Shown here: positions 38,570 to 42,760 of the stretch, piece after piece
How the letters are laid out: each line of letters begins with the position of its first letter
Position numbering within the stretch: the first letter of the stretch is position 1
Assembly (NCBI RefSeq): GCF_020097835.1
Contig: NZ_CP083666.1
Location: 2,852,001 to 2,916,000 of the forward strand
Length of the DNA: 64,000 nt
Direction of reading: 5' to 3'
DNA from: Haloprofundus halobius
GTDB lineage: Archaea > Halobacteriota > Halobacteria > Halobacteriales > Haloferacaceae
The notes under the pieces: generated by a model
What the model was told of the DNA's origin: nothing
Databases searched by the model: none
The model's input: only the letters and a program-made list of their open reading frames with translations
Translations under genes and position numbers: made by a program

Positions 38570-40189
38570 ATGAAGGTGCTCGTCACCGACCCGATAGCCG
38601 ACGCCGGCCTCGAACGACTCCGCGAGGCGGGCCACGAAGTCGAAACCGCCTACGACGTCGCGGACGACGACCTGCTCGTCGCCGTCGCCGATGCCAACGC
38701 GCTCGTCGTCCGCTCCGGAACCGACGTCAATCGAGAACTGTTCGAGGCTGCACCCGACCTCGTCATCGTCGGCCGCGCCGGCATCGGCGTCGATAACATC
38801 GACATCGACGCCGCCACCGACCACGGCGTCATCGTCGCCAACGCGCCCGAAGGGAACGTCCGTGCCGCCGCCGAACACACCGTCGCCATGGCGTTCGCCG
38901 CCGCACGCTCGATTCCGCAGGCGCACGTCCGCCTGAAGGCCGGCGAGTGGGCCAAGAGCGACTACCTCGGCACCGAGGTCAACGGTAAAACGTTGGGAAT
39001 CGTCGGCTTCGGCCGCGTCGGCCAGGAGGTCGCCAAACGCCTCGGAAACCTCGGGATGGACCTCGTCGTCTACGACCCCTACATCTCCGAGGAGCGTGCC
39101 GACCAGTTCGGCGCGGACCTCGTCGACGAACTCGACGCCTGCCTCGCTCGCGCGGACTTTCTCACCATCCACACGCCGCTGCTGCCCGAGACGCGCGGGA
39201 TGATCGGCGAAGCGGAACTGGAGACGTTCGGCCACGGCTACGTCGTCAACTGCGCCCGCGGCGGCATCATCGACGAGGACGCCCTCGCGGCGGCCGTCGA
39301 GGAGGGCACCGTCGCCGGCGCGGCGCTCGACGTGTTCGAGGAGGAACCGCTCGCGGCGGACTCGCCGCTCGTCGACGCCGACGACGTCATCGTTACGCCG
39401 CACCTCGGCGCATCGACTGAAGCGGCACAGGAGAGCGTCGCCGTCGACACCGCCGAACAGGTGCTCGCGGCGTTCGACGAGGAACCCGTCCTCAACGCGC
39501 TCAACGCCCCCTCCGTTGACGAGAAGGCGTTCCCGCGAATCAAACCGTACATCGGCCTCGCGGAGACGGCCGGCAAAATCGCGGCGCAGGTGTTCGGCGA
39601 ACGCATCTCCGAGATCGAGGTGGCGTACGACGGCGACATCGCGGCCGAAAACGTCGAACTCGTCACCGCGAGCGGCCTCAAGGGCGTCTTCGAACCGCTG
39701 GAGTGGCAGGTCAACGCGGTCAACGCCCCCCACCTCGCCGAGGAGCGCGGCATCGACGTCACCGAGAGCAAGAGCAGACAGAGCGAGGACTTCCAGAGCC
39801 TCGTCACCGTCACCGTCGGCGACGGCGAGGAGACGCTCTCCGTCAGCGGGACGCTCTTTGCGGGCGAGGAACCGCGTATCGTCCGCATCGACGGCTACCG
39901 CGTCGACGCCGTCCCGCACGGCCACATGCTCGTTGCGCGCAACTACGACAAACCGGGCGTCATCGGCCTCATCGGCACGGTCCTCGGCGACCACGACGTG
40001 AATATCGCGGGGATGTTCAACGCCCGCGAGACCCGCGGCGGCGAGGCGCTCACCGTCTACAACCTCGATTCGGCGGTCCCCGAGGAGGCCGCCGAGGCGC
40101 TGTTGGCCGACGACCGAATCACCGACGTCCGCACCATCGTCCTCAACGGCGACGCGGAGACGCGCCGCCTCGACGTCGCGGCCGAGTAA
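38570..40189 (+). CDS. serA: D-3-phosphoglycerate dehydrogenase
   Basis: First step of serine synthesis from 3-phosphoglycerate. The NAD-binding domain has GIVGFGRVGQEVAKRLGNLGMD (loop about residue 147), with the Arg in NCARGGIIDEDAL (about 230), Glu and His in TPHLGASTEAA (about 280). An allosteric-substrate-binding domain (about 320-450) and a C-terminal ACT domain (GVIGLIGTVLGDHDVNIAGM) follow, so serine feedback is likely. 539 aa is the long SerA form. ATG 38570 matches the conserved MKVLVTDPIADAGLERL. A CTTAA element about 30 bases upstream suggests a leaderless message. Confidence 0.96.
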   Translation: MKVLVTDPIADAGLERLREAGHEVETAYDVADDDLLVAVADANALVVRSGTDVNRELFEAAPDLVIVGRAGIGVDNIDIDAATDHGVIVANAPEGNVRAAAEHTVAMAFAAARSIPQAHVRLKAGEWAKSDYLGTEVNGKTLGIVGFGRVGQEVAKRLGNLGMDLVVYDPYISEERADQFGADLVDELDACLARADFLTIHTPLLPETRGMIGEAELETFGHGYVVNCARGGIIDEDALAAAVEEGTVAGAALDVFEEEPLAADSPLVDADDVIVTPHLGASTEAAQESVAVDTAEQVLAAFDEEPVLNALNAPSVDEKAFPRIKPYIGLAETAGKIAAQVFGERISEIEVAYDGDIAAENVELVTASGLKGVFEPLEWQVNAVNAPHLAEERGIDVTESKSRQSEDFQSLVTVTVGDGEETLSVSGTLFAGEEPRIVRIDGYRVDAVPHGHMLVARNYDKPGVIGLIGTVLGDHDVNIAGMFNARETRGGEALTVYNLDSAVPEEAAEALLADDRITDVRTIVLNGDAETRRLDVAAE

Positions 40190-40218: not shown

Positions 40219-40680
40219 TCAGAGGCCGAGCAGTCGCCGGAGCGGGTGTTCGTTCTGCCGATGAACCGAGGTGCTGTCGGTGCGACTGCGCTCCTCGGCC
40301 AGCAGCCCCTCGTAGTGGTCGATGATAGCCTGCCGTTCGGCCTCGACGTGTTCGAGTTCCGCCTCCAGTTGGCGGATTCGCGCCTCCAACGCTTCCGGAT
40401 GCCGCTGGGACTCGGCGGACGACTCGTCCGCGCTACCGGGTCGTGCCGCCGTCCACTGCGTCGAGTGCGCCGAGTCCGCCGACACGTCTCGTGCCGACGA
40501 GTCCCGCGGCAGTCGACTATCCGGTTCGCCGTCGTCGCTTCGCGATGCGCGCGACGAGTTTCCGCGAGCGGACCCACCGTCGGGTCTCGGTACGCGTTTC
40601 GATCCGCGCGGGAGGCCTACGGGATACGTTCGGGAGGTCGGTTCGCTGACTGTTCCAGTCGGGAGGTCGGAGAGCGACAC
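40219..40680 (-). CDS. Coiled-coil protein with LPTGT-SEP-RTYP N-terminus, paralogue A
   Basis: 153 aa. A short conserved N-terminus (SLSDLPTGTVSEPTSRTYP), a Ser/Arg-rich disordered middle, a coiled coil (about residues 93-130: LEARIRQLEAELEHVEAERQAIIDHY), and a hydrophobic C-terminus RRLLGL. I chose GTG 40680 because it makes the start match paralogue B (MPLSGFPTGTISEP); the longer TTG start at 40707 falls inside the shared promoter module. Function unknown. The arrangement suggests a scaffold or partner-binding protein. Convergent with serA (29-base gap). Confidence 0.75.
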   Translation of the reverse strand: MSLSDLPTGTVSEPTSRTYPVGLPRGSKRVPRPDGGSARGNSSRASRSDDGEPDSRLPRDSSARDVSADSAHSTQWTAARPGSADESSAESQRHPEALEARIRQLEAELEHVEAERQAIIDHYEGLLAEERSRTDSTSVHRQNEHPLRRLLGL

Positions 40681-40698
40681 AACTCCAAGTGTGTCATA

Positions 40699-40733
40699 CA
40701 GTACCAAAAGTCTGCGTCAGACTACTGTCACAC
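40699..40733 (-). promoter_or_regulatory. Shared 35-base promoter module, copy A
   Basis: Read on the minus strand: GTGTGAC, 4 bases, GTCTGACGCAG, 2 bases, TTTTG, 2 bases, ACTG. It matches copy B (41377-41411) at 28 of 35 positions and ends 18 bases before the GTG. The TTTTG lies where a TATA box of a leaderless gene should be (26-30 bases upstream). GTCTGACGCAG may be a BRE plus an activator or repressor site. Confidence 0.7.
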
Positions 40734-40797
40734 ACGCTCAGTATTCCGAGAGTCTTCGATTCGTTGGAGCGTCGGCGGACGAACCGTCCGCCGGACC

Positions 40798-41358
40798 TCA
40801 GGGCCAGAACAACTTCCGGAGTAGATTCTCGTTTCGTTTCGGGAGGAGTCGTTCACTCCGTTTCGGAAGGAGGTTCCCACTGCTGTTGTCGTCTCGGAGG
40901 AGGTTCTTCCGGCCGCGTTTCCGTCCGCCCCGTGGGTTCCGGGTGCTCGGTTTCCGCACCGTCCGGTCGGCGGTCGCTCCGCGGTGTCGGTTCGACGGCT
41001 CCTCGCGTCGCTCGACGACGACTGCTTCGCGCTCGGTTCTGAGTTCCTCCAGTTCCGTCTCCAGTCGTCGAATCCGTTCTTCGACCGCGCCGAGACGCTG
41101 GAGCGGCGCACGAGACGACTGTGACGCGGTCGATGGTTCGACCGCGGCCGACGACCGCGAAACGACAACCGGCGTCGAACTCGCCGACGGCGAATCTGTC
41201 GGTCGGGAACGCGAACTCGTCGGTCGTTGGGAGCGATCGGCCGACTCGTCCGCCTCGGTTCGACTCTCGGGAGACGACTCACGCTGGGGGTCGCTGGCGG
41301 GGTACGTTCGGTCGTTCGGTTCGCTGATGGTGCCCGTGGGAAAGCCGGACAGCGGCAT
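40798..41358 (-). CDS. Coiled-coil protein with LPTGT-SEP-RTYP N-terminus, paralogue B
   Basis: 186 aa. Same plan as paralogue A: PLSGFPTGTISEPNDRTYP, a Ser/Thr/Arg-rich disordered region, a coiled coil (GAVEERIRRLETELEELRTEREAVVV, about residues 84-112), and a tail that ends LLRKLFWP. Here the tail is strongly basic, with three related units (NLLRDDN, NLLPKRSERLLPKR, NENLLRKLFWP), suggesting nucleic-acid or membrane binding. ATG 41358 is chosen to match A. It is probably a tandem duplicate, since it has the same promoter module at the same distance. Function unknown. Confidence 0.77.
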   Translation of the reverse strand: MPLSGFPTGTISEPNDRTYPASDPQRESSPESRTEADESADRSQRPTSSRSRPTDSPSASSTPVVVSRSSAAVEPSTASQSSRAPLQRLGAVEERIRRLETELEELRTEREAVVVERREEPSNRHRGATADRTVRKPSTRNPRGGRKRGRKNLLRDDNSSGNLLPKRSERLLPKRNENLLRKLFWP

Positions 41359-41376
41359 GGGCACTTCTAGCCGACG

Positions 41377-41411
41377 CAGTCGCAAAAACCTGCGTCAGAC
41401 CCCCGTCACAC
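41377..41411 (-). promoter_or_regulatory. Shared 35-base promoter module, copy B
   Basis: Second copy of the module described for 40699-40733, with identical blocks GTGTGAC, GTCTGACGCAG, TTTTG and ACTG at identical spacing, ending 18 bases before the ATG at 41358. The differences all lie in the three spacers, which argues that the blocks are under selection. Confidence 0.7.
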
Positions 41412-41449: not shown

Positions 41450-42760
41450 TCAGCGCCCGAATTTATTCTTCACCTTAGACATGATCCCGCCGCTGTCACC
41501 TTCGAGGTGGCGGAGCACGGCGTCGGTGTCGTTGGGGACGGGTTCGGGGTCGTCGCCCGCCTCGAAGGCGGCGTCGGGGTCCTTCAGCAGATGTCCCGTC
41601 GTGAGACAGACGACGTCCTCGTCGGCGTCGACGATGCCCTCGTTGCGGAGTTTCTGCAGGCCGGCGACCGAAGCCGCGGAGGCCGGTTCGACGCCGATAC
41701 CCTCCCGTGCGAGTGCGCGCTGTGCGGACGTGATGGCCGCGTCGGAGACCGAGACCGCGGTGCCGCCCGTCTCGCGGATGCCCGGGAGCGCCTTCGGCGC
41801 GTTAACCGGGTTGCCGATGCGAATCGCAGTCGCCTTGGTCTCCACTTCGTCCCACCGTCGGACTTCGTCGGCGTCGTTCTCGATGGCTTCGACCATCGGC
41901 GCGGCACCCTCGGCTTGCACGCCGGTGAGTTTCGGCACGTCGCGCGGGTGCAGCGCCCCGCTGGCGACGAGTTCGCGGAACGCCTTGTACAGCGCGGCGG
42001 TGTTGCCCGCGTTGCCGACTGGGAGGACGATTCTGTCGGGATACCGGCCCTCCTCGGCGTAAAACCGTTCGAGGATTTCGAGACCGATGGTCTTCTGGCC
42101 CTCTAGCCGGAAGGGGTTCAGCGAGTTCAGGAGGTAGGCTTCCCCGCGTGCGGCGAGGTTCTGGACGATGTCGAGACAGCTATCGAAGTTGCCGTCGACC
42201 TCCAGAATCCGCGCTCCGTGGAGACTCGCCTGTGCAATCTTCCCGGCGGCGACCTTGCCTTCGGGCAACAGCACGAGCGTCTCCAGTCCGGCGCGGGCAC
42301 CGTAGGCGGCGAGGGCGGCGCTCGTGTTTCCGGTTGAGGCGCAGGCGAGACGGTCGACACCTAACTCCTTCGCGACGCGGACGCCGACGGTCATCCCCCT
42401 GTCTTTGAAGCTCCCGGTCGGGTTCATCCCCTCGTGTTTGATGCGGAGGCGGTGGACGCCGACCGACTCCTCTAACCGAGGTACTTCGTGCAGCGGCGTG
42501 TCGCCCTCGGGGAGACTCACGCCCTCCTCGAACGGGAGCGCGGCGCTGTAGCGCCAGACGCCGCGCTCGTCGCTCTCGAACTCGTCCCACGTCGGCAGGT
42601 CGTCGTAGCGGACTTCGAGCAGGCCGTCGCAGTCGTCGCAGGTGTACCGAACCGTCTCGAACGGCGCGAACGTCTCGCCGCACTCGATGCACTCCAGCCA
42701 GATTCCCTCGTCGGCGACTTCCGGGGCCGTCTGCGACCCGTCGGAGAGCTTCAGACTCAT
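41450..42760 (-). CDS. thrC: Threonine synthase
   Basis: PLP enzyme converting O-phosphohomoserine to threonine. The N-terminal zinc-ribbon-like part has CIECGETFAP and CDDCDG (residues about 24-45). The PLP lysine is in NPTGSFKDRGM, followed by ASTGNTSAALAAYGARAG and LPVGNAGNTAALYKA. 436 aa. The tail (HLEGDSGGIMSKVKNKFGR) is basic at the very end. ATG 42760 is preferred to a longer frame. Uses homoserine phosphate from the pathway begun by lysC, competing with metX for homoserine. Confidence 0.95.
   Translation of the reverse strand: MSLKLSDGSQTAPEVADEGIWLECIECGETFAPFETVRYTCDDCDGLLEVRYDDLPTWDEFESDERGVWRYSAALPFEEGVSLPEGDTPLHEVPRLEESVGVHRLRIKHEGMNPTGSFKDRGMTVGVRVAKELGVDRLACASTGNTSAALAAYGARAGLETLVLLPEGKVAAGKIAQASLHGARILEVDGNFDSCLDIVQNLAARGEAYLLNSLNPFRLEGQKTIGLEILERFYAEEGRYPDRIVLPVGNAGNTAALYKAFRELVASGALHPRDVPKLTGVQAEGAAPMVEAIENDADEVRRWDEVETKATAIRIGNPVNAPKALPGIRETGGTAVSVSDAAITSAQRALAREGIGVEPASAASVAGLQKLRNEGIVDADEDVVCLTTGHLLKDPDAAFEAGDDPEPVPNDTDAVLRHLEGDSGGIMSKVKNKFGR

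Follow-up and report, generated by a model that had tools for sequence, protein, structure and literature searches.

Two neighbouring small genes of Haloprofundus halobius (genome of 3.95 Mb in 5 contigs), here called A and B, are each preceded by the same promoter block, which raises the question of what controls these genes and what their products might do. The pair is flanked by serA on the plus strand and thrC on the minus strand within the window, that is, the whole 64-kb stretch of DNA that was analyzed and to which all positions below refer. The likely starts, at positions kept in other species, are a GTG at 40680 for A and an ATG at 41358 for B, not the upstream TTG codons at which the program-listed open reading frames (ORFs) of both genes open. 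The features of the locus are:

38570..40189, plus strand: serA (D-3-phosphoglycerate dehydrogenase), convergent neighbour; ORF, named from sequence and H. volcanii synteny
40219..40680, minus strand: gene A, 153 aa from a GTG start; a canonical HVO_2968A-type coiled-coil gene that carries the family core
40222..40251, minus strand: C-terminus of A (EHPLRRLLGL), basic and hydrophobic; conserved, a weak short helix in the model
40267..40425, minus strand: coiled-coil helix of A with the family core ERQAIIDHYEGLLAE; AlphaFold2 helix (pLDDT mostly >90) and alignment
40621..40680, minus strand: N-terminal signature of A (MSLSDLPTGTVSEPTSRTYP); conserved, predicted to be disordered
40706..40709, minus strand: T-rich TATA-like box of A; at a fixed distance from the operator and kept in family promoters
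40716..40733, minus strand: putative CdrS-type operator of A, GTGTGAC-AGTA-GTCTGAC; pattern scan, kept across genus and order
40798..41358, minus strand: gene B, 186 aa from an ATG start; a diverged paralogue that lacks the family core
40801..40914, minus strand: basic tail of B, with NLLPKR/RLLPKR repeats, ending in NLLRKLFWP; genus-conserved
41384..41388, minus strand: T-rich TATA-like box of B; direct reading, TTTTT kept in other species
41394..41411, minus strand: putative CdrS-type operator of B, GTGTGAC-GGGG-GTCTGAC; pattern scan, half-sites kept in other species although the letters differ
41450..42760, minus strand: thrC (threonine synthase), upstream neighbour on the same strand as A and B; ORF, named from sequence and synteny

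The shared promoter block and its conservation

The original prediction described a 35-base module upstream of both genes, and a pattern scan recovered it at each without mismatch: GTGTGAC-N4-GTCTGACGCAG-N2-TTTTG-N2-ACTG occurs at 40699-40733 and 41377-41411, both on the minus strand, with no occurrence in the shuffled window, and these are the only two occurrences in the whole 3.95-Mb genome at up to 3 mismatches. Direct reading likewise bore out that 28 of the 35 bases agree between the two blocks, that the seven differences all fall in spacers, and that exactly 18 bases separate the block from the start in both cases. The block resolves into a predicted 18-bp palindromic operator, GTCNGAC-N4-GTCNGAC, with half-sites one helical turn (11 bp) apart, adjoining a T-rich TATA-like box. 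By direct count, the 10th nucleotide of the operator lies 44 nt before the start codon at both genes, and the placement of the T-box implies a probable near-leaderless start; short leaders are common in haloarchaea.

The order thrC, B-like gene, A-like gene, serA is the same in all five of the Haloprofundus genomes examined, and the ORF of A and its start position are kept in all five species. In the other four, A is 56–67% identical to the protein encoded in the window, with the N-terminus MSLSDLPTGTVSEPTSRTYP, the coiled coil and a C-terminus reading HPIRRLLGL near-invariant, and the block upstream of A is almost invariant across the genus. The corresponding B blocks read GTATGAC-N4-GTCTGAC in three species and GTCAGAC-N4-GTCTGAC in H. 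marisrubri; thus, they differ in letters but keep two half-sites 11 bp apart, which indicates that the paired half-sites are the real unit. A search for B across 60 genomes matched only Haloprofundus, apart from one marginal match in another family of the order, and no relative was found in the viral contigs searched. The A/B duplication is older than the genus, and B is a Haloprofundus-specific diverged copy that kept the operator, while its protein no longer has the coiled-coil core and has acquired a basic tail.

Beyond the genus, a profile of A identified a single-copy homologue in the genus labelled g28, which we infer to be Haloferax, with an N-terminus reading MSLSSMPTGTVSRDG..SRTYP and a promoter that carries GTCTGAC[AG][CT]A-N3-TTTT at the same place as in A. 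The gene order there is thrC-X-serA, where X is the operator-bearing homologue of A; homologues lie beside thrC and/or serA in genera g22 and g18 as well, and in most g13 loci the gene lies away from both, with the operator still kept. Across Halobacteriales, the family profile matched 205 of 392 genomes (E up to 1e-4). From about 30 genera, we retrieved 39 loci, with the protein match as the sole criterion of choice, and found the operator followed by a T-rich box in 28 of them, compared with 0.06% of dinucleotide-shuffled regions, under a rule that allowed up to 2 mismatches at the 12 fixed positions of the 18-mer, then required the T-box, within a span of −250 to +45 nt of the match start. 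Four further loci have an operator with 3 mismatches, at another (L166) the site has 2 mismatches and no clean T-box follows it, and in L163, L167, L171, L174 and L175 a site is visible by eye outside the box rule or the search span; L178, which lacks an operator, looks like a false protein match.

Per-position information content in such a set is circular at the 12 fixed positions, and only the T-box, A21 and G8/C11 are informative; in a set of 50 promoters of the family, conservation extends to the T-box and to an A located three bases past the 18-mer, both of which lie outside the selected positions. Using tblastn on the fetched stretches, we detected thrC at 25 and serA at 15 of the 39 loci, and reading the list row by row showed that thrC and/or serA adjoin the gene in 34 of 39. 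The gene, its operator and its neighbourhood are therefore old and shared across the order. A second coiled-coil subtype with a different N-terminus (e.g., MI.DLPV...) is found at L045, L050, L148, L155 and L176 (g13, g68, g65 and g52), and its left half-site is degenerate in most loci.

A coiled-coil family with a diverged paralogue

The N-terminal signature, the coiled coil and the hydrophobic ends ascribed to the two proteins are all present. The signature, PTGTVS, proved to be only the form seen in members from Haloferacaceae in our alignment, and the family-wide signature is instead the coiled-coil core (R)RQxVIDxYExLL, a consensus derived from g28 and other genera. In family members, the coiled coil ends in this core; a variable linker then leads to a C-terminus that is short, basic and in many cases amphipathic. 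A carries the core, which reads ERQAIIDHYEGLLAE, whereas the corresponding segment of B reads TEREAVVVERREEP and departs from the consensus, making B a diverged paralogue and not a canonical member. The basic repeated tail of B, also part of the original prediction, was confirmed and is conserved in the genus, and the protein has a net charge of +10 and a pI of 11.0. An AlphaFold2 model of A built on 31 sequences (mean pLDDT 67) shows residues 1-84 as low-confidence and helix-free, then a single confident helix spanning model residues 85-137 (pLDDT mostly >90), and finally a short helix that is weakly predicted.

The family is not covered by any model in Pfam or NCBIfam, searches of these collections returned no homologue with a known function, and B matched nothing in them above cut-off. 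Coiled-coil matches of A to Cep57, DUF7310, Med21, ZapB and IS3 models were all below threshold and were rejected as family assignments. The resemblance to PF06657 (Cep57_MT_bd; E 5.9e-5, 23.9 bits against a cut-off of 31.3) and to PF23991 (DUF7310; E 0.014, 16.3 bits against a cut-off of 40) amounts to weak coiled-coil likeness without membership, and among 31 family members searched at E up to 0.001, Cep57 was matched by A only and DUF7310 by none.

Target genes and probable membership of the CdrS regulon

CdrS is a ribbon-helix-helix (RHH) cell division regulator of Haloferax volcanii, for which ChIP-seq has yielded 18 binding sites and a symmetric motif (PMC8406309). Among the promoters bound in vivo is that of HVO_2968A, with the motif at −42 from the transcription start site (TSS), compared with −50 for ftsZ1 and −47 for dacZ; further targets include proteasome genes, the genes for a PRC-domain protein and threonine ammonia-lyase, and hisB together with HVO_2987, which is divergent to it (PMC8406309). 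HVO_2969 is annotated as thrC3 (PMC4300041), so the numbering puts HVO_2968A next to thrC3, the position that the homologue occupies in g28.

A scan of the H. halobius genome for GTCNGAC-N4-GTCNGAC with at most 1 mismatch returned 42 places, compared with 1 site per strand for the reversed pattern, a ratio that at first sight suggests strong enrichment. Among the sites at gene starts are those of ftsZ1, a PRC-barrel gene, the threonine ammonia-lyase gene, a divergent pair of hisB and a small-membrane-protein gene, and A and B themselves; for ftsZ1, the PRC-barrel gene, threonine ammonia-lyase and the hisB pair, the CdrS ChIP-seq table has a corresponding entry. About 26 kb separates the hisB pair from A and B, which agrees with the numbers HVO_2968A and HVO_2986. 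In the 64-kb window, however, dinucleotide shuffles lead one to expect about 1.6 matches to the bare 18-mer at up to 1 mismatch, so that it shows no over-representation there; because it is thus not a rare sequence, we claim no genome-wide enrichment; what is informative about the operator is its promoter position, the T-box at a fixed distance, the identity of the target genes and conservation across genera.

The ftsZ1 promoter has the same operator architecture as those of A and B, with GTCAGAC-GACC-GTCCGAC in Haloprofundus and GTCGGAC-AGAT-GTCTGAC in g28. Upstream of g28 dacZ, one genome has GCACGAC-AAGC-GTCAGAC ahead of a T-box, and the site in another is weaker; no such operator was found in the Haloprofundus dacZ promoter, so the regulons differ in part. 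In g28, by our count, the ATG of the HVO_2968A-like gene lies 45 nt, that of ftsZ1 58 nt and that of dacZ 50 nt downstream of nucleotide 10 of the 18-mer; as the motif is reported at 42, 50 and 47 nt before the respective TSS, the implied leaders are 3, 8 and 3 nt long. For a CdrS-regulon promoter, the operator is expected 41-110 nt upstream of the TSS. On synteny and promoter geometry, HVO_2968A is the counterpart of A and B, and the operators, judged by target genes and spacing, are almost certainly CdrS sites. The regulator itself is present, in the form of an intact cdrS encoding a 62-aa RHH protein that ends just upstream of the ftsZ2 start. CdrS very likely binds the A and B promoters in H. 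halobius, and probably activates both genes. In H. volcanii, HVO_2968A is not marked as down on cdrS repression (PMC8406309 Table 1), so the regulation may be weak or conditional.

Several further sites were recorded in the same genome. Perfect 18-mers lie just 5' of a DUF7139/DUF7140 membrane protein gene, where a TTTT box accompanies the site (C1:1985387-1985404, plus strand; L056/L076), and 129 nt before a gene resembling that of a single-stranded-DNA-binding (RPA-like) protein (C1:2577048-2577065; L077), and a one-mismatch site lies 44 nt before a DUF7093 protein gene (C1:2434895-2434912, plus strand; L103); the DUF7139/DUF7140 and DUF7093 genes are predicted CdrS targets. Of three additional near-matches to a shorter pattern, the one at L056/L076 is a promoter site, and the other two (L055 and L057) were rejected by eye as sited at gene ends. 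The cdrS-ftsZ2 promoter of this genome (L068, about 1090-1250) contains GTAAGAC-N4-GTCTTAC, with the same spacing as the CdrS-type operator and different inner bases, and a further GTCTTAC near the start; a similar arrangement is seen in L069-L074. CdrL acts on cdrS-ftsZ2 and is reported to bind only that promoter in Halobacterium (PMC7439475), and GTAAGAC-N4-GTCTTAC is a candidate CdrL site.

Alternative readings, possible role and comparison with known systems

The tandem arrangement of A and B, together with the agreement of their blocks at 28 of 35 positions in H. halobius, might suggest that the blocks are a mere remnant of recent tandem duplication without regulatory meaning. We reject this reading, to which we give almost no credence: the duplication is older than the genus, in other species, the B sites retain both half-sites despite their different letters, and the site is conserved upstream of single-copy orthologues in many genera, which refutes it. 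Absence of the block upstream of orthologues had been named in the original prediction as grounds for dismissing the module as such a remnant; because the block is conserved there, it survives that test. The GTCTGAC block could also be a CdrS-independent element shared by housekeeping genes, for instance, the site of another RHH regulator with a similar operator, given that several RHH regulators exist in haloarchaea, that CdrL acts on cdrS-ftsZ2 (PMC7439475), and that the operator is tied to CdrS by target genes and spacing, not by a published logo. However, the genes with the site recur on the CdrS ChIP list, among them HVO_2968A itself and the divergent hisB pair, an unusual target, and the operator distances agree with the published ones, making this explanation quite improbable.

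Somewhat less improbable, although still unlikely, is a metabolic role, in which the protein would serve serine/threonine metabolism by modulating ThrC or SerA, with CdrS coupling metabolism to the cell cycle. The adjacency of thrC and/or serA in 34 of 39 loci speaks for such a role, as does the presence of threonine ammonia-lyase and hisB among CdrS targets, but the gene is served by a promoter of its own, the position of the operator does not suit control of thrC or serA, most g13 loci lie away from both genes, so that the neighbourhood is dispensable, and a coiled coil joined to a disordered half is unlike an enzyme regulator. The explanation that we favor, and consider likely overall, is that A and B are CdrS-regulon genes with CdrS operators, with a possible role of the A-type protein as an accessory adaptor.

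Under this model, CdrS would act on the 18-bp palindrome directly upstream of the T-rich TATA-like box and a nearly leaderless start, the usual working position of archaeal activators. A represents, in Haloprofundus, a gene found throughout the lineage beside thrC and serA (HVO_2968A in H. volcanii), and its product would be made together with FtsZ1 and the PRC-barrel protein under CdrS control. That product could be a dimeric coiled-coil adaptor that presents a short binding motif on its disordered N-terminal tail and, through a basic, amphipathic C-terminus in contact with the membrane or a binding partner, joins the tail-bound protein to the membrane or the division assembly, serving as an accessory of cell division or envelope growth. 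We advance a division-linked adaptor role as a tentative hypothesis. A more specific proposal, which we regard as speculative and rather unlikely as it stands, is that the HVO_2968A family is a missing haloarchaeal division component, a lineage-wide coiled-coil adaptor coexpressed with FtsZ1 via CdrS that would link FtsZ/SepF/PRC-barrel assemblies to the membrane, with a second, basic-tailed form evolved in Haloprofundus. To our knowledge, few haloarchaeal division proteins are known, and a lineage-wide gene wired to a division regulator is thus a direct candidate, with a reasonable chance that the family leads to a new division component.

Small coiled-coil adaptors of bacterial division of the ZapB type offer an analogy only, A likewise being a small coiled-coil protein, placed beside FtsZ by its regulation. 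No homology of A to ZapB was detected (Pfam E 0.13, far below cut-off), and its disordered N-terminal half and basic C-terminus set A apart. The close comparison is with the CdrS regulon of H. volcanii (PMC8406309) and with CdrS of Halobacterium (PMC7439475), where the predicted operator architecture recurs at the same targets and at the same place upstream of the TATA box. HVO_2968A lies beside thrC3 as A and B lie beside thrC, and the distance of 42 nt between its CdrS site and the TSS agrees with the geometry of the g28 promoter; unlike H. volcanii, Haloprofundus has two copies, one of them diverged. The notion of a small regulon with its own regulator was thus right in that a real, conserved control site places the genes in a regulon, but the module is not private, because the regulator is almost certainly the known CdrS. 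Nor is the module undescribed, given that its operator matches the CdrS operator as we reconstruct it and the orthologue HVO_2968A already stands on the ChIP-seq list (PMC8406309). The literature on that regulon gives HVO_2968A solely as a conserved hypothetical protein, and in the literature searched, mainly open access, HVO_2968A appears in a single paper and we found no description of the B duplicate, the order-wide conservation of gene and operator, or the predicted DUF7139 and DUF7093 targets. Thus, the regulon is already known, and the order-wide family, its operator in many genera and the basic-tailed B form appear to be undescribed. An orphan-looking block thereby gains a regulator, and a line in a ChIP-seq table becomes a conserved, unmodelled protein family, with operator and position kept across Halobacteriales, whose inferred operator allows the CdrS regulon to be predicted in other haloarchaeal genomes.
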